A DNA stretch of 64,000 bases from an uncultured Sulfurovum sp. (lineage in GTDB: Bacteria > Campylobacterota > Campylobacteria > Campylobacterales > Sulfurovaceae), in the NCBI GenBank assembly GCA_902727935.1, contig CACVAX010000013.1:87072-151071 (forward strand), read 5' to 3'. The translations under genes were made by a program, and so were the position numbers. Below, piece after piece: positions 343 to 19,524 of the stretch (positions are counted from its first letter, which is position 1; every line of letters starts with the position of its first letter). The notes under the pieces were generated by a model, which saw only the letters and a list, made by a program, of their open reading frames with translations, had not been told where the DNA came from and searched no databases.

Positions 343-558
343 TTCCTCATCTTTTAATTGGAGAAAGTATAACCATTTCAGCCTAATAGCACAAACAATA
401 TCTAAAATTATCATTTTTATCATAAATAATATTTTTAAACATTTTTTACTTTTTTACATTTATATAGAAATAAAAATTATTTTTATATATTACTTAGTAT
501 TATCTATCTTTATTTTTTTGAAAAGTTTTAAAACATATCACAATTTTTCTGTCTAAAA

Positions 559-722
559 CTAGCTATCATGGTTATAGCGATATTCGTTATCGCGAAGAGG
601 GCTAGACAAAGCGTCAAAGGAAGAAGTTCGAAAATTTCAAAGAAGTTGACTCAACTTCTGCGACATAGATAGCAAAATGTTTTTTCAAGTTAAAGGAGGA
701 AATCTCATCTTTGCTATTTTTT
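559..722 (+). ncRNA. Candidate structured non-coding RNA / riboswitch-like leader with intrinsic-terminator hairpin
   Basis: Hand-folded helices: 562-570 with 664-673 (GCTATCATG/CATaGATAGC), 577-582 with 588-593 (GCGATA/TATCGC), 641-648 with 652-659 (AGAAGTTG/CAACTTCT), and 669-679 with 706-717 (ATAGCAAAATG/CATcTTTGCTAT) followed by a T run. No ORF explains the region. Confidence 0.5.
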
Positions 723-819
723 AACAAATTACCTCAAATATCCTCTTATTCTAAAATTGACATTTATCAAAAAATAATTTTACTTTATCCTCTATAATAA
801 AACAAAAAGGCTTACCCAT

Positions 820-1248
820 ATGGCATTAGTTTACATAGAACAACTTGAAGACTTAGATGTTGAAGAGATGCAACAAACTCATGAAGATGAAGTAATACTA
901 CTAAATGAGATAGATAAACTCGCAACACAGCATCAAATGGGTCAACCTACCTTAGAAGAATTAAATGAAAAGTTAGACACCTATCTTATTCATGTAAAAG
1001 AACACTTTAGCAATGAAGAACGTCTTATGAGAAAATATGATTTTCCTTCTTACGAAATGCATAAAATGGCACATGATATATTTTTAGAGGATTTAAAGTA
1101 TGCTGTAAACCAATGGAAAAGATCTGACAACCTCGATAAAATCATTAATTTTATCCGTAAATCACCAGAGTGGATTGTTTTACACATTAACAGTGTAGAC
1201 GCACCCACATCAGCTTTTATACACCAACAAATGGAACGTGAAGCATAG
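820..1248 (+). CDS. Bacteriohemerythrin / hemerythrin-like oxygen-binding protein
   Basis: 142 aa; H..E...L (QQTHEDEVILLNEIDKL), HVKEHFSNEERLM, Y..HKMAHDIFLEDL and LHINSVD motifs typical of the hemerythrin four-helix bundle. Confidence 0.88.
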   Translation: MALVYIEQLEDLDVEEMQQTHEDEVILLNEIDKLATQHQMGQPTLEELNEKLDTYLIHVKEHFSNEERLMRKYDFPSYEMHKMAHDIFLEDLKYAVNQWKRSDNLDKIINFIRKSPEWIVLHINSVDAPTSAFIHQQMEREA

Positions 1249-1724
1249 AGCATAAGAGTACCAACGAATCGGTACTTTTATTTTGTCGTACTACCCTTAA
1301 CATGAGGGTTAGCTCTTGCCTTCATAGTACTTAAATCATATTCTTCGTTCATCGTAGCATTTTCTATTGCTCTATGTAATTTTCGCTCTAATACTTCTTT
1401 AGGAGGTAACTCTAACCAATACTCTGAAACATGAATATTATCGCGTTCTAAATCCATTAATTCAACAACTTCACTATCTTTAGAAGCACAGAGAATAATT
1501 GCTATTGGTTCTTGTTCATCTTCTTGTTTTTCATACTTGGATAGCCATTTTAAATAAAGTTCAACCTGTCCTTTATATTGTGGAGCAAATTCGCCTATTT
1601 TCAACTCTATAAGTATCAATCTCTTTAACTTTCTATGATAAAAGAGTAAATCCATTACATAATCACTGTTTCCTATTTGTACTCTTTTTTGACGACTTAA
1701 GAAAGCGAAATCACTACCAAATTC

Positions 1725-3061
1725 TAGGTAAATCCGATGACTCCCAAGATAACACCTAAGATGTCACTATCTACCAAAAGAGACAGTACCTAAAAAAACA
1801 AAAAAGGTAGTTTTGAACAGAAAAAAAGAGACCTAAGCCTCAATTTCAAAGATTTCAGAGGTAAAATCATCTAAATGATGACAAGTTCTCTTAATTTCAG
1901 CCATGGTGACTTTAGATTTCATAATTTTTTCACCCTTATGAGCATTAAAGTAGAGTTGATAAAGGTTAATAGTAAAACTTCTCAAAATTGCCATAGAGAA
2001 GGGATTAACATAAGCAATATGATTATCTTCTTTGGTCAACATGTCTAAATGGTAATGATAAGTCTCAATACTCCAATGTTGTAAGATAGAGTTATGAAAA
2101 GATTTAGCATTACTTTTGAAGTTTGCAACCAAATAAGTGATGATTGTGTTTATCTCTCCTGTATCATTATCGGTAAGCTCTTTTGTTATTTTTATGATGG
2201 TTTGAATATTTTTAAAGTCAGGATGGAACATCACCAAGTTACAATCAGAATTTTCATAAATCTCAACGGTTCTTCTTGTTAATTTGTTTCCCTCTATGGT
2301 AGGTCTCTTATCTTTGTAACTATCGGTTGGCTTATCAAAGAGTTTGATGCTCTCTTTGGCTTTATCTCTTAACTTCTCTTGATTCCCTTTCACTTTTGCA
2401 ATATATCTTCGCCCTGTATCATTGATGGTATTTAACAAATCAACTTGCGTCATTAGGGCATCAAATGAGAATATTTGACCACCTTTACAAAAGCGTTCAT
2501 CCTCTAGTAACTCCCTAAATGCAGAGATTTCACTTAATTTTCCTTTCTCCATAAACTTATGGGCTACTACTAGCTTTTTCTCTTTGTCTAGTACGTTAAA
2601 AATAGATTTATGACTCTCGTTTGTGTACTGTCCACTTACATCACTTCCCCTTAACCATTTACCATCGACTGACATTGTATCTAGGGTTACATACGGAAAA
2701 AAATGGTCTCTAAAAACCTTTTCTAGCTCATTATTATCTGTATTCATGAGTAGATTATGTAGTGTTGAATGAGATGGAATATTCATTTTATCTTTTTCGA
2801 ATAGCTTTTTAAATAACTCATTATTCTCTTGGTGTTGCATCCATCCATGTAACTCTTTATATGTTACATATCCCTTCAACAGTCCAAACACTGTCATAAA
2901 AAGTATTTCGTACAGTGGGTACTCTATCTTGTCTTCATCTACTCTAAAGTCATTTACTTTTTTTAGCTCTTCTATTAACTTTTTTTTCTTTTTCATCTTC
3001 ATGGTTGACATTACAGCAAACTTCTCTTAATCTTTGCTTTTTTTCTCGTCGGATTTACCTA
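1725..3061 (-). mobile_element. ISAs1-family insertion sequence (about 1.34 kb)
   Basis: Terminal inverted repeats taggtaaatccgatga (1725-1740) and the reverse complement taggtaaatccgacga (ending 3061); target duplication accaaattc at 1716-1724 and 3062-3070; encodes an ISAs1-type transposase. Confidence 0.92.
1833..3011 (-). CDS. ISAs1-family transposase
   Basis: 392 aa; VDGKWLRGS, FDALMTQ...YIAKVKGNQEKL and LQHWSIETYHYHLDMLTKED motifs of the ISAs1/H-repeat-associated transposase family. Confidence 0.92.
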   Translation of the reverse strand: MSTMKMKKKKKLIEELKKVNDFRVDEDKIEYPLYEILFMTVFGLLKGYVTYKELHGWMQHQENNELFKKLFEKDKMNIPSHSTLHNLLMNTDNNELEKVFRDHFFPYVTLDTMSVDGKWLRGSDVSGQYTNESHKSIFNVLDKEKKLVVAHKFMEKGKLSEISAFRELLEDERFCKGGQIFSFDALMTQVDLLNTINDTGRRYIAKVKGNQEKLRDKAKESIKLFDKPTDSYKDKRPTIEGNKLTRRTVEIYENSDCNLVMFHPDFKNIQTIIKITKELTDNDTGEINTIITYLVANFKSNAKSFHNSILQHWSIETYHYHLDMLTKEDNHIAYVNPFSMAILRSFTINLYQLYFNAHKGEKIMKSKVTMAEIKRTCHHLDDFTSEIFEIEA

Positions 3062-3797
3062 ACCAAATTCTAAAATAAACTTTTCAAGCTCTTGTAAAAT
3101 AGCACTTTATAAATCTCTTTCACTGTATGAATCATTTAATTCTAAAAAATCAAACAAATATGGGTCTTTTAAAAAGAGTTCCGTACTCATTTTATTATCT
3201 TTGTTCAAGAGTTCTAAATCTTTTCGTATGCTTACTTCAGGCTTTTTAGAAATAGCTGTTCGTTCAAATAACATGGAGTTGATACGTTCTCTTAACGTTC
3301 GAACATTCCAACTTTCGGTAGAACACATAGCAACATAAAATTCTCTTTGTAGCTCATCTTTTATTTTAATAAACTCTATAAAGTGTGACCAGCTCAATTT
3401 GTGCGACAATGTCGCACAAATCTCTTTATCATTAAAAATCGTATATAACTTCATCATTCGTTCAAGATTAGAACGACTGTATCCACTCCCATATTCTAAT
3501 GTTACTCTTTAGATATTCTCTTAACTACTTCTTGACCATAAACAGCTCGTTTATCCTTTAAAACTTCTATTTTTAACCGTTCACCTATCTCCCAATAAGA
3601 AATTATCATCGTATTATTTATCTGAATAGCAGCGTGTTTTTTTGAGGTGTCTATAATGGTTTTTATGTTGCTGTATAAAGTGCTTATATCTTTTTTTGAT
3701 TCTATATTTGGTATTTTTTCCTCTCTTTTTACAATTTTAATATTTATTATTTTATTTGGAATGTGGGATGTTGTCATGGTTTCAAAGTATAAAAATA

Positions 3798-4538
3798 TTA
3801 AATCTTATTAAGCTCATAAATCATAACTTGTACATAGGGCTTAAATTTCCCATTTTTCATTTGACATTTTGCAAGTTCTTTTTGTTTAAATTCATCTTTA
3901 TTAAATTTATTTTTTAACCTATTCCTTTCTCTTTTTTTCTCGATTATAATACTTTTTTGCACTGCTTCTATTATTGATTTTCTTGCATCTTTTAATTTCT
4001 GAAAATTTAAATTTAAAGTTTTAATATCCTTCTTAACCTCAACTTTCTTCAAATCATCTAAGCAAACTATACTTCCATCACGCCCATAGCCCAATACTAT
4101 TTCAGCTGATACATCCAATGGATTTAGAAATTTTAAAAATTGATTACCTTTACTTTTGTCACAATATTTATTATCAGGATCTAACTTATCATTTCCGTGA
4201 CAAGTTGCTAACATATTTTGATACTTTGTACCTAGTTTATCATGATACAATTTCTTTTTCTTCTCAAGATTTTTATAATCTTCAGGATTTTGAGGAATAT
4301 AATGTTCAATTGTTGGCTTTATACTAGAATGACTATTTATATCAATAAATTGCATACAATAACAACATATACTGCCTTGTTCTTGAATTAATGAAGCTAA
4401 AGTATCTGTATAAATTGTTTTATTTTTAGTTTTATCATCGCTAACTGCACTATATGTATAGTGTTTGCCATTTGCATCTTTACCTTTATGTATAGCAATC
4501 AATTCAGGTGGTTGCTGTCCTTTAATTATATATTTCAC
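3798..4538 (-). CDS. HNH endonuclease-like protein, PtuB/TIGR02646-like (Septu-type effector)
   Basis: 246 aa; CCYCMQ...IEHYIPQ...NMLATCHGN...CDKSKGN zinc/HNH signature; directly downstream (3-nt gap) of a PtuA-like ATPase. Confidence 0.78.
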   Translation of the reverse strand: MKYIIKGQQPPELIAIHKGKDANGKHYTYSAVSDDKTKNKTIYTDTLASLIQEQGSICCYCMQFIDINSHSSIKPTIEHYIPQNPEDYKNLEKKKKLYHDKLGTKYQNMLATCHGNDKLDPDNKYCDKSKGNQFLKFLNPLDVSAEIVLGYGRDGSIVCLDDLKKVEVKKDIKTLNLNFQKLKDARKSIIEAVQKSIIIEKKRERNRLKNKFNKDEFKQKELAKCQMKNGKFKPYVQVMIYELNKI

Positions 4539-4541
4539 TAA

Positions 4542-5939
4542 TCAATCTTCTAAAATCGATAAAATAGTATTGGCTTCAATGATTATATTATCCTCTGCTC
4601 CAAAGTACTCTGTAAGTTCAGATAATAACTTTTTTGCTTCTGTTAAGTCATCCAATTCCAATGCAGAAAATAAAGCTGAAACTTTTTCTTCTAGCTCTTG
4701 TGGTCTTTTTGTAACTCCCATTAAATCAAGTAAGATAGAATTTATATCTCTTCCATAAGAGTAATGGATAGATTCATCAATTTTTCCATTTTTAATGATT
4801 TTTAAGTACTTCTTTTTTAAATGACCTAAAATTAATGGTGAATGAGTAGTTGTAATAAATTGATTATTATTTTCTAACTTTAATAGTTCATTTACAAAAT
4901 CTCTCTGCCATTTAGGATGTAAATATGTATCAGGTTCATCAAGTAAAAATAATGTATTTTCAGTAGCTAACAACTCTTTTAATCCTAAAATTGTAAGTAG
5001 TTGTTTTTCTCCCTCACTTAAATTATTATGAGATATGATTTTCTCATCTTTATTTATCATAACTTCAATATTTTCTATTAAATCATTTGCTTGTAAAGTT
5101 GTAAGATATTCAAAAATACTTTTTTCTTCACCATAAAATTCCCATATATTAATTAATTTTTCTTGTGAGGGAATAGTGAAAATTATATTATCATCTGTAA
5201 TTTTATAGTGTGATATATCACCTAAAATATTTATCATTCTTTCTATAAAAGTTAACAAATCCCCACTAGCACCCCAAGCATTTTCTATTGTATCTTTTGC
5301 CCAATACGGTTTTTTAAGTGTTATTATTATCTTGTCAAATCCATCAATAGCAAACTGTTCTTTTAATATTTCAGGCACTCGATATTGATAAGCAAGTAAA
5401 GCAGTAAGAATGGTAGAAAAGTTTTCAGGTAAAAAGTAAAAAAATGGCTGTTCTATTTTTTTACTATTCTTAACAGATGGTTTTATAAAATATTCTTCTT
5501 GAAATACTTTAAATTTATTTTCTAAAGTTTCAGATATACCAGAATAATACATAACAACATTTTGAGGAAGCATATCTTTATAGTCACTATAAAACTCTTG
5601 ATTTATTTGTGATTTTGAATATTTCTTAGATTTTTCATCATTTCGTTTTATATTTATCTCATAATATTCTTTTGTTTTTTTATTGGATGTAATATATATT
5701 TCATACTTATTTTCACTATATTCTATTTTATATCTAAGTTTAAAATCAAATTCTGGTTTACTACCTTTTCCAAGCACAAAATGCTCATATAAATCATAAA
5801 ATATATTAGCTACAAACTCTAATAGAGTAGATTTACCTGACCCATTTTGACCTATTAGTACAATAAGTTGTTCATCAAAAGTTGTATTAAAATCTTGTAG
5901 AAGTTTATAATCTTCTATCCATAATTCTTTTATTTTCAT
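4542..5939 (-). CDS. AAA_15/AAA_21-type ABC-like ATPase, PtuA-like
   Basis: 465 aa; Walker A GQNGSGKST at the N-terminus; signature LSEGEKQLLTILGL; Walker B TLFLLDEPDTYLHPKWQ; THSPLIL. Paired with a PtuB-like HNH protein. Confidence 0.8.
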   Translation of the reverse strand: MKIKELWIEDYKLLQDFNTTFDEQLIVLIGQNGSGKSTLLEFVANIFYDLYEHFVLGKGSKPEFDFKLRYKIEYSENKYEIYITSNKKTKEYYEINIKRNDEKSKKYSKSQINQEFYSDYKDMLPQNVVMYYSGISETLENKFKVFQEEYFIKPSVKNSKKIEQPFFYFLPENFSTILTALLAYQYRVPEILKEQFAIDGFDKIIITLKKPYWAKDTIENAWGASGDLLTFIERMINILGDISHYKITDDNIIFTIPSQEKLINIWEFYGEEKSIFEYLTTLQANDLIENIEVMINKDEKIISHNNLSEGEKQLLTILGLKELLATENTLFLLDEPDTYLHPKWQRDFVNELLKLENNNQFITTTHSPLILGHLKKKYLKIIKNGKIDESIHYSYGRDINSILLDLMGVTKRPQELEEKVSALFSALELDDLTEAKKLLSELTEYFGAEDNIIIEANTILSILED

Positions 5940-7291
5940 TTTGTAAAAATCTCCTCTTCAAATTCTTTTATTGCATCTTCTCTATTTTGTATAGCTTCTT
6001 TTTTTAATCTTTTAACTTTTGCTTTTCGTTTTGTGACTTCTGTTACTATTTTTTCTTGTATATCAAAAGATGGAATAACTACTTTATAATTTTTAACCAT
6101 CTCTGCATTTAAGTTTGGTTGATTGTTTCCACTTGCTAGTTCTCTTAACCTATGATACTCATTCATTAAGTAAAACCATAGATAATCAGTATCTATCAAT
6201 TCATTGTCAATATTTGATAAAACTGCACAAGCTTGATTTGTTGAAGCATCAACTCCTAATTTAGCAGTTCTACCTCTTGTTAGTCCTTGACCATACATAG
6301 CTATTATTAAACTATCTTTTGGATATACTTTTGCACTACTGTTTTTTATGGCTTCTACTGTTATTTTTTCTTTTGTATCTAAAATAATATCATTTACAAC
6401 TTCACCAGTTTTTATCCAAGGAATTTTCCCAGTGTAATATTCTTTATTACTTCTACTAGGGGTTCCTCCACTACTTACTGTAGCTATTGATTGAATATTT
6501 TTTTGAGTAAAGTTTTTTATGTAAGATATGTTTTGATTAGTATTAAGTTTATCTACTCCCCATTTTTCAACATTAGTATAAGTAATTGTTTTTAGTAGGT
6601 TTTTACTTTTAGATTTTAGTTCTTTTTTTACTAATCCAATTTCATTATTAAAAAAATCTTCAATATCATCTTCAATTTTTTTAGCTTCTTTCTCTTGTTC
6701 TTCTGCAAATAATATTTTAGTATTATATTTTTCTAACAATTCATTTTGTTCTTTTAAAGAAGGAAGTGGAATTTTAATGTTTAGAAATTCATCAACTTTA
6801 ACTCTAGATTTACCAATACCCGATGTTTTTGTATCAAGTAACCTTTTAAATGAAGCACTTCTTAAAACTAATTTCAGATAATAGCCATTGATTTCTTTAT
6901 CATTAAATACAAAAATAGGATATTCAGAACTTACGGTAAAAGGTGTTTTGTTATGTTCATGGTAATATATACAACCATGCCTTACATTGATTTTTGAATA
7001 TATAATACTATTAGAAGGTACTTTATATAAACTACCTTTATATGTATCTACTTCATCATAATCTCTTAAAAATAATTTACCAGAAAAATTAATTTTTGAA
7101 ATTATTTTCCATTTATTTTCTTTAATTGCATCTTTTAAAATATTTTCTTTTTCATATATTAAAATATCTTTTAATAATACAGCGTTATTAAAAGACAACA
7201 AATTATCATTCGAATACCTTTTAACATCCCAATAATCAAGTTCTTTTAAAGATATATATTTTAAAAATGTACTTATATTATTTTTACTCAT
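5936..7291 (-). CDS. Type I-style restriction-modification specificity subunit (HsdS)
   Basis: 451 aa; two target-recognition halves; IPWIKTGEVVND...KDSLIIAMYGQGLTRGRTAKLGVDASTNQACAVL motif; IPLPSLKEQNEL and IPSFDIQEKIV conserved ends of the two halves. Confidence 0.9.
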   Translation of the reverse strand: MSKNNISTFLKYISLKELDYWDVKRYSNDNLLSFNNAVLLKDILIYEKENILKDAIKENKWKIISKINFSGKLFLRDYDEVDTYKGSLYKVPSNSIIYSKINVRHGCIYYHEHNKTPFTVSSEYPIFVFNDKEINGYYLKLVLRSASFKRLLDTKTSGIGKSRVKVDEFLNIKIPLPSLKEQNELLEKYNTKILFAEEQEKEAKKIEDDIEDFFNNEIGLVKKELKSKSKNLLKTITYTNVEKWGVDKLNTNQNISYIKNFTQKNIQSIATVSSGGTPSRSNKEYYTGKIPWIKTGEVVNDIILDTKEKITVEAIKNSSAKVYPKDSLIIAMYGQGLTRGRTAKLGVDASTNQACAVLSNIDNELIDTDYLWFYLMNEYHRLRELASGNNQPNLNAEMVKNYKVVIPSFDIQEKIVTEVTKRKAKVKRLKKEAIQNREDAIKEFEEEIFTK

Positions 7292-9645
7292 ATACTCAGT
7301 TCTTCATCATTTAAAATTTTAACAATATTATTATCATTTACTTTATACTCTAAGTTAAATTTTTTACTCTCCCAAAGTCTATTTTTCTCTCTGTAAATTT
7401 TAAACTCTTTTTCTAATGGAATAAGTTCATTTTCTATTTTAGCACCTGTCGTACTTATACCTGCTTTTTCAATTTCTGCTATTGGGATCTCATAATTAAA
7501 CGTCTCTTTTACTTCTACTTTTATTTCTACTGTTCTTTTAGCTTCTAACTCTTTTTTATCTTTTCTAAGCTTTTTCTTTTCATCAGCCATTAAAGCCTCT
7601 TTACCCTTTTTAGATAATTGTTTTTCAATTTCTTCTAATTGCTCTTCAAATTTACTATTAATCGTTTTGGTAGCTTCATTCTTAATAGTTTCATACTCTT
7701 TAGCTTCCTCTTCTGTAAATTTTTTAAAGAATAGTAAACTAGGTTTTACAGTAGCACCTGATGCTATAAAAACATCTTGAGGTATAGAAGTAATTAAAAT
7801 TATTTTTGCTTTACTCTCTACATAATCTCTTACTTTTTGAAGATTAGAGTTATTTAAAACACCCTCAGGTAAAACTATTCCCATTCTTCCACCAGCTTTT
7901 AAAAGGTTTAAACATCTCTCTATAAAAAGTACTTCTGTTAAAGTACTTAATTTACCAGTATCATATAAACTTAATAAAGATTTATTGATGTTGTCATTAA
8001 TTTGACTTTGAGCATCATCATAAGTCTCTTTACCATATCTCTCTTGATATATTGCAATTCTATTATTATCAGTAAGCCTATCTTCTTCTGTAATTTTAAG
8101 AGATTTTTCTATACGAGAACCAAAAGGTGGATTTGTCAGAATAACATCAAAACGGTTTTCAAAGATACCATTTACATTTAGAAGCCCATCATTATGATGC
8201 ACTCCTCCATGACCATCTCCGTGCATTATCATATTCATTTTTGCAGTTCTCGACATTCTTGGATTTGCATCTGTTCCATATATACAGTTATAAGACAATT
8301 CTTTTAATCTGCTATTTTCTATATTTTTATCAAGTTCACCATTTAATTTTGCAAAAAAATTATTTACTTTTTTATCAATTTTAGCTTTTTCTTTATCATT
8401 TAATTTATCATACTCTTCATCATAAAATTTCTTTTTTATAGTCTCTTTTTCTTTTTGAATATCTTCTTCAATTTGACTTCTAACATATTCAAATGATTTT
8501 ATAAGAAAACCACCACTACCACAACAAGGGTCACAAATAATTTCGCCCTCTCTTGGGTCTAAAATATCATTCATAAAATCAACTACTGTACGAGGAGTGA
8601 AAAATTGTCCTAGTTCTCCTCTAAATGTTTTACCTAAAAATTGTTCAAAAGCTATACCCTTAACATCATCTGATGTTATTGAAAGATTGTACTTTTGTAG
8701 TTCTTCTACTATTGCTTCAAAACTTCCTTCTTTTATTCGCATTTTTTCATGTTCGTTAAAAAGGTCATCATTTTTAAATTCTTTTTTTGTCTCATCAAAA
8801 ATTTTATCTATATATGAAGGTATTTGTAACTGTTTTAATTCTAGAACTTTTTTATCTACACTTTTTGCTTTTTCAAAGTCACCTACTTTTATATACTCTT
8901 CTTTATGTTCTTCTTCCCACTCTATCTTATTTTGAATCTCTTTTTTGAAATTATCTATATATTTATTCTTTTCTTTTATAAATTCATTAAGTGAAAAAAG
9001 TTGAGTTTTATTATTACTTCGCTCATATCTTATTTTTATAAACAGTATTTTACTTATCTCATCAAATGCAGCCTCTGGAGAAAGTCTGTCATTATTTCGT
9101 ATAATATTATGGCACTTAGTAAGTAGTTTAGAAAACTCATCTCTTGTAAACGATTTAGTCTGTTTTAAAAGCTCTTCTATTTTTTTATCATTATTTACAA
9201 TATTAAAATTTGGAATATCTATAATTTCTTTAAGTCTTTTCGGAATTTTACCTTTTACAACTTGAAAAATTTTTGTCTCTTTAAGATTTGTAGTTACAAA
9301 AAAGTCTGCTCCTGCCCATGATGCATAGTTTGAGCCTTGAAAATAATCTTCTTCCCTAATAGTTAAGTACTCAGCTTTACACTCTACCACAATTAAGGGA
9401 CTATTCTCTTCATTTTTATCATCTTTAGATTTCCAAATAAGAATATCAGCCATAGCCCGACCTTGCCCTCGTGAAGAATTATTTACTTGAACTTCTTGTT
9501 GCATTTGATCCAAACTATAACCATAACTTTGAACTAGTCTACATATATATTTTTGTCTGACTTCTTCTTCAGGCTTCAATACCAACCATTTATTTTTTAA
9601 TGGTGCATAAATTTTTTTATCTTTGATTTTAACTTGACAAGGCAT
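7288..9645 (-). CDS. Fusion of type I R-like PD-(D/E)XK N-terminal nuclease domain and N6-adenine DNA methyltransferase (HsdM-like)
   Basis: 785 aa; N-terminal GQGRAMADILIWK...SPLIVVECKAEY (D...ExK nuclease motif); central GQFFTPRTVVDFMNDIL, DPCCGSGGFL and NPPFGSR methyltransferase motifs. Confidence 0.88.
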   Translation of the reverse strand: MPCQVKIKDKKIYAPLKNKWLVLKPEEEVRQKYICRLVQSYGYSLDQMQQEVQVNNSSRGQGRAMADILIWKSKDDKNEENSPLIVVECKAEYLTIREEDYFQGSNYASWAGADFFVTTNLKETKIFQVVKGKIPKRLKEIIDIPNFNIVNNDKKIEELLKQTKSFTRDEFSKLLTKCHNIIRNNDRLSPEAAFDEISKILFIKIRYERSNNKTQLFSLNEFIKEKNKYIDNFKKEIQNKIEWEEEHKEEYIKVGDFEKAKSVDKKVLELKQLQIPSYIDKIFDETKKEFKNDDLFNEHEKMRIKEGSFEAIVEELQKYNLSITSDDVKGIAFEQFLGKTFRGELGQFFTPRTVVDFMNDILDPREGEIICDPCCGSGGFLIKSFEYVRSQIEEDIQKEKETIKKKFYDEEYDKLNDKEKAKIDKKVNNFFAKLNGELDKNIENSRLKELSYNCIYGTDANPRMSRTAKMNMIMHGDGHGGVHHNDGLLNVNGIFENRFDVILTNPPFGSRIEKSLKITEEDRLTDNNRIAIYQERYGKETYDDAQSQINDNINKSLLSLYDTGKLSTLTEVLFIERCLNLLKAGGRMGIVLPEGVLNNSNLQKVRDYVESKAKIILITSIPQDVFIASGATVKPSLLFFKKFTEEEAKEYETIKNEATKTINSKFEEQLEEIEKQLSKKGKEALMADEKKKLRKDKKELEAKRTVEIKVEVKETFNYEIPIAEIEKAGISTTGAKIENELIPLEKEFKIYREKNRLWESKKFNLEYKVNDNNIVKILNDEELSI

Positions 9646-9679
9646 ATTTTCTCTTTTGAAATTTAAGTTTTGTATTTTA

Positions 9680-9895
9680 TCATCTTCTTGTTTGATTATT
9701 GATGCTATTAGATTTTATAAAAATATTCTCTTTGAGCTCATCAAGCGTAGAGAACTTTATGTTCTCTTCTTCAAAAGCTAAATCAGCGACAGAAACGGTT
9801 TTATAATCTCCATCAAGAAGTATCTCACAATAATCATCTGTCTGATTTATAACAATAGTATTTTGATTCGTTGGTTTGTAAGTGGCTTTTTTCAA
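9680..9895 (-). CDS. Small hypothetical protein, first ORF of the RM/Septu-like operon
   Basis: 71 aa ORF immediately upstream of and co-oriented with the methyltransferase fusion; no family recognised. Confidence 0.45.
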   Translation of the reverse strand: MKKATYKPTNQNTIVINQTDDYCEILLDGDYKTVSVADLAFEEENIKFSTLDELKENIFIKSNSINNQTRR

Positions 9896-9985
9896 ATGAT
9901 TTCCCTATTTCCAATTGAGTAAACCATTATAACTCAAAAAGAGCCACTTGACAAATATCAACCAAGAACCACCCGAATAGATTTT

Positions 9986-10053
9986 TTACACATCAACAGT
10001 ATGAATGCACCAACATCACGATATGTAACACATAAAATAAACCTTGAAGCATA
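9986..10053 (+). pseudogene. Remnant of a hemerythrin gene 3' end
   Basis: Ungapped 68-nt match to 1180-1247 (48/68 identical by hand count); decodes as ...LHINSMNAPTSRYVTHKINLEA* versus intact LHINSVDAPTSAFIHQQMEREA*. Confidence 0.7.
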
Positions 10054-10122
10054 AAGTTGAGAGGAGATAGAGGGTTATTACGCTAAGATTATGCCTAACA
10101 AACATTCCTCTCATGGAGACCC

Positions 10123-11544
10123 ATCATCAAATTAAAATCTATATTCTCAAATAGTTTCGGTATTCTTTTTTCACGTGTTACAGGTCTTGGACGTGATGTT
10201 GCTATGGCATCTGCTCTTGGTGCTTCTATCTGGACAGACATCTTCTTTGTAGCCTTTAAACTTCCCAACCTTTTTAGACGAATCTTTGCCGAGGGTGCTT
10301 TTACCCAAGCATTTATGCCTTCCTTCATAGCTTCTAAACAAAAAGGCGTTTTTGCCACGGCTATTTTCTTACGTTTTATGCTCATACTCATAGCTTTCTC
10401 TCTCTTGGTGACCATCTTTCCTGAAATACTTACTAAAATTATTACTCCCGATTGGTCAAGTGAACAAATAGCCCAAACAGCCCCATTAACTGCCATTAAC
10501 TTTTGGTATTTGGATTTAGTCTTTATTGTTACCTTTTTAGCAACACTGCTACAATACAAAGAACACTTTGCAACCTCTGCTATGTCGACAGCACTGCTTA
10601 ATATTTCTATGATATCTGCTCTACTTTTTTACATGAAAGACGAGCCTCAAACCATTGTTATCGCTCTTTCTTTTGCTGTAATCATTGGGGGTATTCTTCA
10701 AGTTATTGCCCACCTCATCGCCATTAAACAATTTAACTTACAACGCATACTTATTGGTGGTTGGAAATACCGAAACAAAAAGAGTAAACAAAAAGATTTA
10801 AACAAAGAAAAAAAAGAATTTAATAATCTATTTTTCCCTTCTGTTTGGGGAAACTCCATGCCTCAAATCTCTTCGTTTATAGATACTATTTTGGCTTCCT
10901 TTCTTATCTCTGGTTCTATCTCTTATCTTTTCTATGCCAACCGAATTTTTCAACTTCCTCTAGCCATTATTGCCATTGCAGCCTCTATTGCACTTTTTCC
11001 TGCCATTTCAAAGGCTATTAAACATGATAATGAAGCCTTAGCCTATCAACACCTAAACCGTGTTTTTTGGATTCTTTTAGCGTTACTTGGTTTGGCAACA
11101 CTCACAGGAATTATATTAGCAGAGCCTATTGTTTGGTTACTCTTTGAAAGAGGTGCTTACACAGCCGAGATGACAGCAAGTACAGCCTCTGTTTTAGCCA
11201 TGTACATGCTAGGGCTTATTCCTTACGGTTTAGCCAAACTCTTTGCACTCTTTCTTTACGCTAAAAAAGAGCATAAAAAAGCTGCAAAAATAGCCACTAT
11301 TACCCTGCTTATCAATATCATGGTATCTTTTACCCTTATGAAACTCATGGGTGCACCTGGTTTGGCATTGGCTGGAAGTATTGGAGGATTGATCTTTTTT
11401 ATATTGACACTTAGAGGGATAGGGTTTCATATTTTTACAAATATCATGAATTTAAAGAAACTTATCTACTTAGGCATAGGCTTAAGTATTTCTGCACTGA
11501 TGTTAATATTTATAAATGAATTAATTATGAATTGGATTCGATAA
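10123..11544 (+). CDS. murJ: Lipid II flippase MurJ (MviN); start codon unclear
   Basis: The ORF track starts at internal ATG 10204, but conserved MurJ N-terminus KSIFSNSFGILFSRVTGLGRDVAMASALGASIWTDIFFVAFKLPNLFRRIFAEGAFTQAF reads in frame from about 10123-10135. The next in-frame stop is at 10096-10098, with no ATG/GTG/TTG between. Confidence 0.88.
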   Translation: MIKLKSIFSNSFGILFSRVTGLGRDVAMASALGASIWTDIFFVAFKLPNLFRRIFAEGAFTQAFMPSFIASKQKGVFATAIFLRFMLILIAFSLLVTIFPEILTKIITPDWSSEQIAQTAPLTAINFWYLDLVFIVTFLATLLQYKEHFATSAMSTALLNISMISALLFYMKDEPQTIVIALSFAVIIGGILQVIAHLIAIKQFNLQRILIGGWKYRNKKSKQKDLNKEKKEFNNLFFPSVWGNSMPQISSFIDTILASFLISGSISYLFYANRIFQLPLAIIAIAASIALFPAISKAIKHDNEALAYQHLNRVFWILLALLGLATLTGIILAEPIVWLLFERGAYTAEMTASTASVLAMYMLGLIPYGLAKLFALFLYAKKEHKKAAKIATITLLINIMVSFTLMKLMGAPGLALAGSIGGLIFFILTLRGIGFHIFTNIMNLKKLIYLGIGLSISALMLIFINELIMNWIR

Positions 11545-19072: not shown

Positions 19073-19119
19073 GAAAAATATTATATCAAAAAAAAAGCCT
19101 TAGTTGGCTATACTTCCAC

Positions 19120-19457
19120 AGGTGTGATAGGTAGTTGCTGGTGACATTCGTCACGAGAGGAAAGTCCGTGCTACACATGAGATAGGACTCCATCTAACGG
19201 ATGGCCAGAGTAATCTGAGGGCAAGTGCAACAGAGAGTAGACAGCCACATTGTGGTGAAGGTGAAAGGGTGAGGTAAAAGCTCACCAGTACTTATGGTAA
19301 CATAGGTAGCTAGGTAAACCCTGTCCGTAGCAAGAAGTAATGGTATTAAATCTCATTAAGTCATTGGATTGACAAAACTGCTTCGCTTGAACATAGTGGC
19401 AACACTATGTCTAGATAAATAACTGCCCACGACAGAACACGGCTTATCGTCACACCT
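19120..19457 (+). ncRNA. rnpB: RNase P RNA component (type A)
   Basis: Signature blocks GAGGAAAGTCCGTGCT, CAGGTAAACCC-like (gctaggtaaaccctgtcc), ACAGAACACGGCTTATCG; P1 helix AGGTGTGA (19120) with TCACACCT (19450-19457). Confidence 0.95.
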
Positions 19458-19524
19458 AACTCTACAAATATATTAATCTTAACGCGTTATAATCCCCTAA
19501 ATATATCAAAAGGACTTATAATAC

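Follow-up and report, generated by a model that had tools for sequence, protein, structure and literature searches.

Gene content of the ruvA-murJ interval

The window is the whole stretch of 64,000 nucleotides analysed here, taken from contig CACVAX010000013.1 of an uncultured Sulfurovum sp. Near its start, the order is ruvA, a conserved unit at about 424-719, and a hemerythrin-domain gene. The unit shares 81-82% identity with its counterparts in two relatives, G018 and G025. It begins on the forward strand with an AT-rich upstream region (424-550), which travels with the RNA and is a probable promoter region. It continues on the same strand into a proposed non-coding RNA of about 165 nt (551-719), whose structure is conserved in six genomes and whose start is placed putatively. 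A candidate -10 element, CACAAT (539-544, forward strand; TATAAA-like in G022), aligns and is kept in five of the six homologues and lacks a clear -35. The consensus promoter scan recognised no promoter for the RNA, and CACAAT was not detected by it. The sigma70 promoters of Campylobacter jejuni have no -35 box (PMC3847290).

The hemerythrin-domain gene (820-1248, forward strand; Pfam PF01814, E = 5.5e-7) is an independent neighbour. A conserved FNR/CRP-type box, TTGACATTTATCAA (757-770, forward strand), is located upstream of this gene, in the hemerythrin promoter and outside the RNA, and TTGAYATTTATCAA is invariant 5' of hemerythrin in five species (G018, G022, G025, G013 and G000, the window's own genome). 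The preliminary description had proposed that hemerythrin carries its own -10. This is borne out by TATAAT at 793-798 (forward strand), which is conserved in four species and reads TATACT in G013. TATAAT lies about 32 bp downstream of the box, which places the box at about -41.5 from the putative transcription start. Such box-to-TATAAT spacing is that of a class II FNR-activated promoter. The promoter is kept in G018, which has the RNA on the downstream side of hemerythrin, and in G013, which has hemerythrin but no RNA. Judged from these sequences, hemerythrin has its own conserved, predicted FNR-box promoter downstream of the RNA.

In many relatives, ruvA and murJ stand next to each other in divergent orientation, and the interval between them is often short and gene-free. 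The window's group has an accessory-gene hotspot in this interval (window 424-10120; L025-L029). The hotspot contains hemerythrin, the RNA unit, PAP2, a restriction-modification cluster, Gabija-like OLD and UvrD genes, a transposase, and the gene of a small LKKATYKPTNQ protein. A second hemerythrin 3' end was observed just before murJ (window 9970-10054), with about 75-80% DNA identity to the hemerythrin ends of relatives; it may be what is left of a tandem copy, or a duplicate produced by integration at the far end of the island. The gene of a YhcG-type PDDEXK nuclease is apparently split into C- and N-terminal pieces (window 1278-1655 and 3502-3777), and a DDE transposase gene (1833-3011) is located between them. 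The murJ start is apparently non-AUG in several genomes: the window, G022 and G025 have AUC behind a GGAG site and G031 has AUA, where G018 and others have AUG (window about 10115-10140; L026 about 9040; L028 about 4030; L068). Bacterial class A RNase P RNA (RF00010) was found at 19119-19462 of the window.

Distribution and mobility of the unit

Homologues of the RNA were found by DNA search and a covariance model in five other Sulfurovum-type MAGs and in the window's own genome, with one copy per genome. The six RNA-bearing genomes are G000, G018, G022, G025, G003 and G032. The covariance model matched the window at 559-719 with 176 bits and found no RNA in the other 169 genomes of the 175-genome family; within the genus, 28 of the 34 genomes lack it. 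A model built from the 3' hairpin alone returned the same six single copies, and several copies per genome, as for a MITE/REP-like mobile hairpin element, were not seen. The order-wide covariance search gave a single extra match (25 bits, E = 0.09), which coincides in part with the end of what looks like a coding region and was rejected as chance. Similarly, two DNA matches were rejected as chance, one in coding-like sequence (L007) and one in a terminator-like stretch behind a gene (L008). Similar DNA was not found in plasmids or phages, and a search of IMG/VR viral contigs with exact patterns only gave no match to the RNA. No Rfam family matched the RNA in the window or the relatives.

The neighbouring genes change from genome to genome while the unit retains about 130 bp of its upstream sequence. 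The names of the OLD, helicase, PAP2, ABC-F and metallo-beta-lactamase genes were read off the protein sequences. In G025, the unit lies between a helicase-like gene and hemerythrin. In G022, it follows an OLD-type ATPase and a 97-aa gene and is followed by PAP2, hemerythrin and murJ. The order in G018 is hemerythrin, unit and murJ, and the hemerythrin block ends a few bp before the unit. The G003 copy stands between an orphan 175-aa gene and a convergent ABC-F gene, and no same-strand gene follows. In G032, a metallo-beta-lactamase-like gene precedes the unit and the contig ends after it. The segment 424-719 is thus conserved independently of its neighbouring genes across the six genomes. On the ABC-F tree of 23 congeners, the RNA must have been gained or lost several times. 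Because of this tree, and because the outlying copies of G003 and G032 occupy other loci, the RNA unit is read as having moved or been transferred.

Several repeats and transposase-like sequences were also observed. REP-like palindromes (GGTCGATAAATCGACC) are located near the two outlying RNA copies, and L015 has a gene that reads as a REP-associated-type transposase (L019 101-212 and 824-842; L015 5425-5545 and 1240-1704). Inverted repeats of 113 bp (L029 94-206) and about 126 bp (L019 4329-4454) resemble palindromic mobile elements. One ORF in L003 was considered as an IS200-like TnpA fragment and was dropped, as no Pfam match was present.

Helices, predicted folding and coding potential

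The four helices of the preliminary description were all recovered in place on the forward strand. The closing helix pairs its 5' arm (562-570) with its 3' arm (664-673) through GCUAUC/GAUAGC and AUG/CAU, with one bulged A, and 669-673 (AUAGC) of the 3' arm is common to the 3' hairpin. The hairpin GCGAUA-UUCGU-UAUCGC at 577-593 (577-582/588-593) can pair in every one of the six homologues, and two of its pairs change from G-C to G-U. The helix check and the homologue alignment place the hairpin AGAAGUUG/CAACUUCU at 641-659 (641-648/652-659); it is good in the four ruvA-murJ species and eroded in G003 and G032. The terminator-like 3' hairpin (667-719) is the best-conserved part, with a mean column identity of 93%. 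Previously given as 669-679/706-717, it extends to 667-679/706-719 with C709 bulged, and its inner helix is 680-686/695-701. The T run at 717-722 is real and window-specific. After the 3' hairpin, the sequence is ...CTATTTA in four relatives, and in the fifth the contig stops at CTATT. Of the terminator that had been suggested for the RNA itself, the hairpin is conserved and the T run is confined to the window. Termination at the 3' hairpin in the relatives is doubtful because a strong U tract follows the hairpin in the window alone.

The window RNA folds at -41.0 kcal/mol, compared with -30.8 +/- 3.2 for dinucleotide shuffles (z = -3.2, 0/200); the opposite strand gives z = -1.5. In the full RNA, the probability of the 3' hairpin is 1.00 and that of the closing helix is 0.00. 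When the RNA is stopped at AUAGC, the closing helix has a probability of 0.91 in the window, 0.81 in G018, 0.94 in G022 and 0.96 in G025; the corresponding values are 0.38 in G003, where the helix is ambiguous, and 0.00 in G032, where it is lost. The mutually exclusive folds proposed earlier were therefore reproduced thermodynamically in four of the six species (G000, G018, G022 and G025). In the prediction, the nascent RNA of these four is dominated by the closing helix, which is gone once the 3' hairpin is made. In the full-length minimum-energy fold, the 5' part uses another, window-specific outer helix (CUAGC/GCUAG).

Conservation of the structure was evaluated on the six sequences, using column shuffles that preserve the gap pattern and the conservation class. 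The consensus fold beats 300 such shuffles (z = -5.1, 0/300), and the structure conservation index gives z = 3.8. By part, consensus folding yields z = -5.0 for the 3' hairpin and z = -2.6 for the 5' domain. The closing helix shows one double change at 567/668 (C-G to U-A), but with C.A mismatches in two species, and the 3' hairpin shows one at 681/700 (U-A to C-G). The covariation of the closing fold does not reach significance, being equalled by 75/500 shuffles, and that of the 3' fold is modest (11/500). In the covariation check suggested beforehand, the signal is thin because only six sequences are available, and the compensatory changes are too few to prove either fold.

Codon periodicity is absent, and substitutions by codon position are 113/111/83. 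One suggestive frame encodes a hydrophobic LAIIFIAIxVIV stretch; it has no common start codon, its stops fall at differing places, and indels in G025 and G003 break it. These results agree with the earlier statement that the region has no ORF. Since conserved folding is significant, codon periodicity is absent and indels break the sole suggestive frame, the comparison of homologues identifies the region as a structured non-coding RNA.

The small RNA reading and its alternatives

The computation shows an RNA that is conserved in sequence and predicted fold, single-copy, non-coding, and moving independently of hemerythrin. The segment 551-719 probably gives rise to a non-coding small RNA that is free-standing, about 165 nt long, and restricted to a few Sulfurovum-type species, where it occupies an accessory, rearranging locus. 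Because its shape is kept in five related species but the neighbours differ, it is probably a stand-alone sRNA and not a hemerythrin switch. The preliminary description had left both options open. The independent movement of the unit supports the free-standing sRNA, and the hemerythrin riboswitch is not supported. Several findings count against the sRNA reading: a consensus promoter was not recognised, the U tract behind the hairpin is strong in the window alone, covariation is non-significant in the closing fold and modest in the 3' hairpin, the distribution of the RNA among genomes is patchy, and the whole RNA of G032 folds no better than shuffles (z = -0.6).

The most serious rival, itself unlikely, is a mobile DNA element acting through hairpins, such as a non-autonomous IS200/IS605-, REP- or cassette-like unit, and not a regulatory RNA. 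The unit has moved between loci, an inverted repeat, AAATAGCAAA/TTTGCTATTT, forms its 3' end and marks where the homology stops, and REP-like repeats lie near the unit in G003 and G032, with a RAYT-like gene on the same contig of G032. However, each genome holds exactly one copy even by the hairpin-only model, a clean target site or duplication was not found, the promoter-like upstream region and the 5' hairpin are conserved too, and the junctions read for ruvA-murJ copies showed no REP-like repeats. The swapped order of the hemerythrin and RNA blocks in G018 prompted a look for integron attC sites, and inspection by eye recognised no attC-type core sequences. Next comes an improbable transcription-terminating riboswitch or attenuator, in which a ligand would stabilise 562-570/664-673 and block the 3' terminator hairpin, with read-through into the next gene. 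Its logic draws on the mutual exclusion of the two folds and the dominance of the closing helix in the nascent RNA of four species, and in four species the next downstream gene is on the same strand. However, this gene varies (hemerythrin twice, PAP2, murJ) and is convergent in G003, so nothing is left to regulate there; the RNA does not occupy the 5' leader of one regulated gene across the species. Hemerythrin is served by its own predicted FNR-box promoter, also where the RNA is not upstream. Exclusion of anti-terminator and terminator is predicted in four of the six species, the closing helix being lost in G032 and ambiguous in G003, and the U tract is strong only in the window. The preliminary description had seen no match to the TPP, SAM, cobalamin or c-di-GMP-I cores, and Rfam gave neither a riboswitch match nor a ligand-binding core of a known class in the window and relatives. 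Riboswitches are also rare in the related C. jejuni (PMC3847290).

An mRNA of an AapA-kind type I toxin is less probable again. The frame LAIxxIAIxVIVxRAxQRxKGR would encode a small membrane peptide whose translation would be blocked by metastable helices. A hydrophobic stretch and a basic tail are readable in most copies, and Helicobacter pylori is known to have type I toxin-antitoxin systems as well as metastable structures that form co-transcriptionally (PMC8322730). However, the copies do not share a short open frame that begins with a start codon, given the differing stops, the frame-breaking indels in G025 and G003 and the lack of codon-position bias, and the invariant hairpin 577-593 explains the apparent peptide. 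A diverged 6S RNA is highly improbable. The lengths are similar (about 165 versus 185 nt), a transient closing stem is predicted, and none of the 34 genus genomes, the window's own included, has a 6S RNA match to the Rfam model (RF00013), although this model was positive in only 5 of 14 control genomes and may miss diverged 6S RNAs. Against it, the RNA is missing from most of the genus, the 6S RNA of C. jejuni sits upstream of purD (PMC3847290), and the full-length RNA is predicted to finish with a 3' hairpin, not to form a long rod whose two ends close it.

For the free-standing sRNA, the following course may be proposed. The RNA would be transcribed from its own sigma70-type promoter at about 539-544. 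The nascent RNA would first close the multibranch fold via GCUAUC/GAUAGC; the 3' hairpin would then capture AUAGC and displace the closing helix, and would both end and protect the RNA. This refolding would release the 5' arm, together with the purine-rich middle and the apical loop CAAGUUAAAGGAGG. The exposed conserved single-stranded stretches, namely ACAAAG, AAAGGAAGA and this loop, could pair with targets, and the RNA probably acts in trans by base pairing through them. There is also a slim chance of a new RNA family whose 300-bp unit moves autonomously from one accessory hotspot to another and whose function depends on programmed co-transcriptional refolding; such an RNA might, for instance, have a partner and serve in regulation or defence on an island.

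Among known systems, the free-standing intergenic sRNAs of Hfq-less Epsilonproteobacteria such as H. pylori and C. jejuni are alike in being short and non-coding with a stem-loop 3' end, and they come from the same bacterial class. In contrast to them, the Sulfurovum RNA has no Rfam match, is limited to six Sulfurovum-type genomes, and has a purine-rich hairpin loop carrying AAAGGAGG. In transcription-terminating riboswitches, as in the folds predicted for the Sulfurovum RNA, a closing helix and a terminator-like hairpin share one strand and exclude each other, whereas the Sulfurovum RNA has no constant downstream gene and no known aptamer class, and one copy has no same-strand downstream gene. 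In H. pylori, the mRNAs of the AapA/IsoA type I toxin-antitoxin systems likewise form metastable structures during transcription, as predicted for the Sulfurovum RNA, but the latter has no conserved reading frame. Helices that share a terminator upstream of a gene are alone no evidence for a riboswitch.

The element is probably an unclassified, lineage-restricted sRNA, a new example of an ordinary kind. The literature search returned no described sRNA of this kind in Sulfurovum-type sulfur oxidisers. If it is transcribed, it would represent a new sRNA family in these sulfur oxidisers and a further example of accessory genes among which an sRNA gene has been shuffled.
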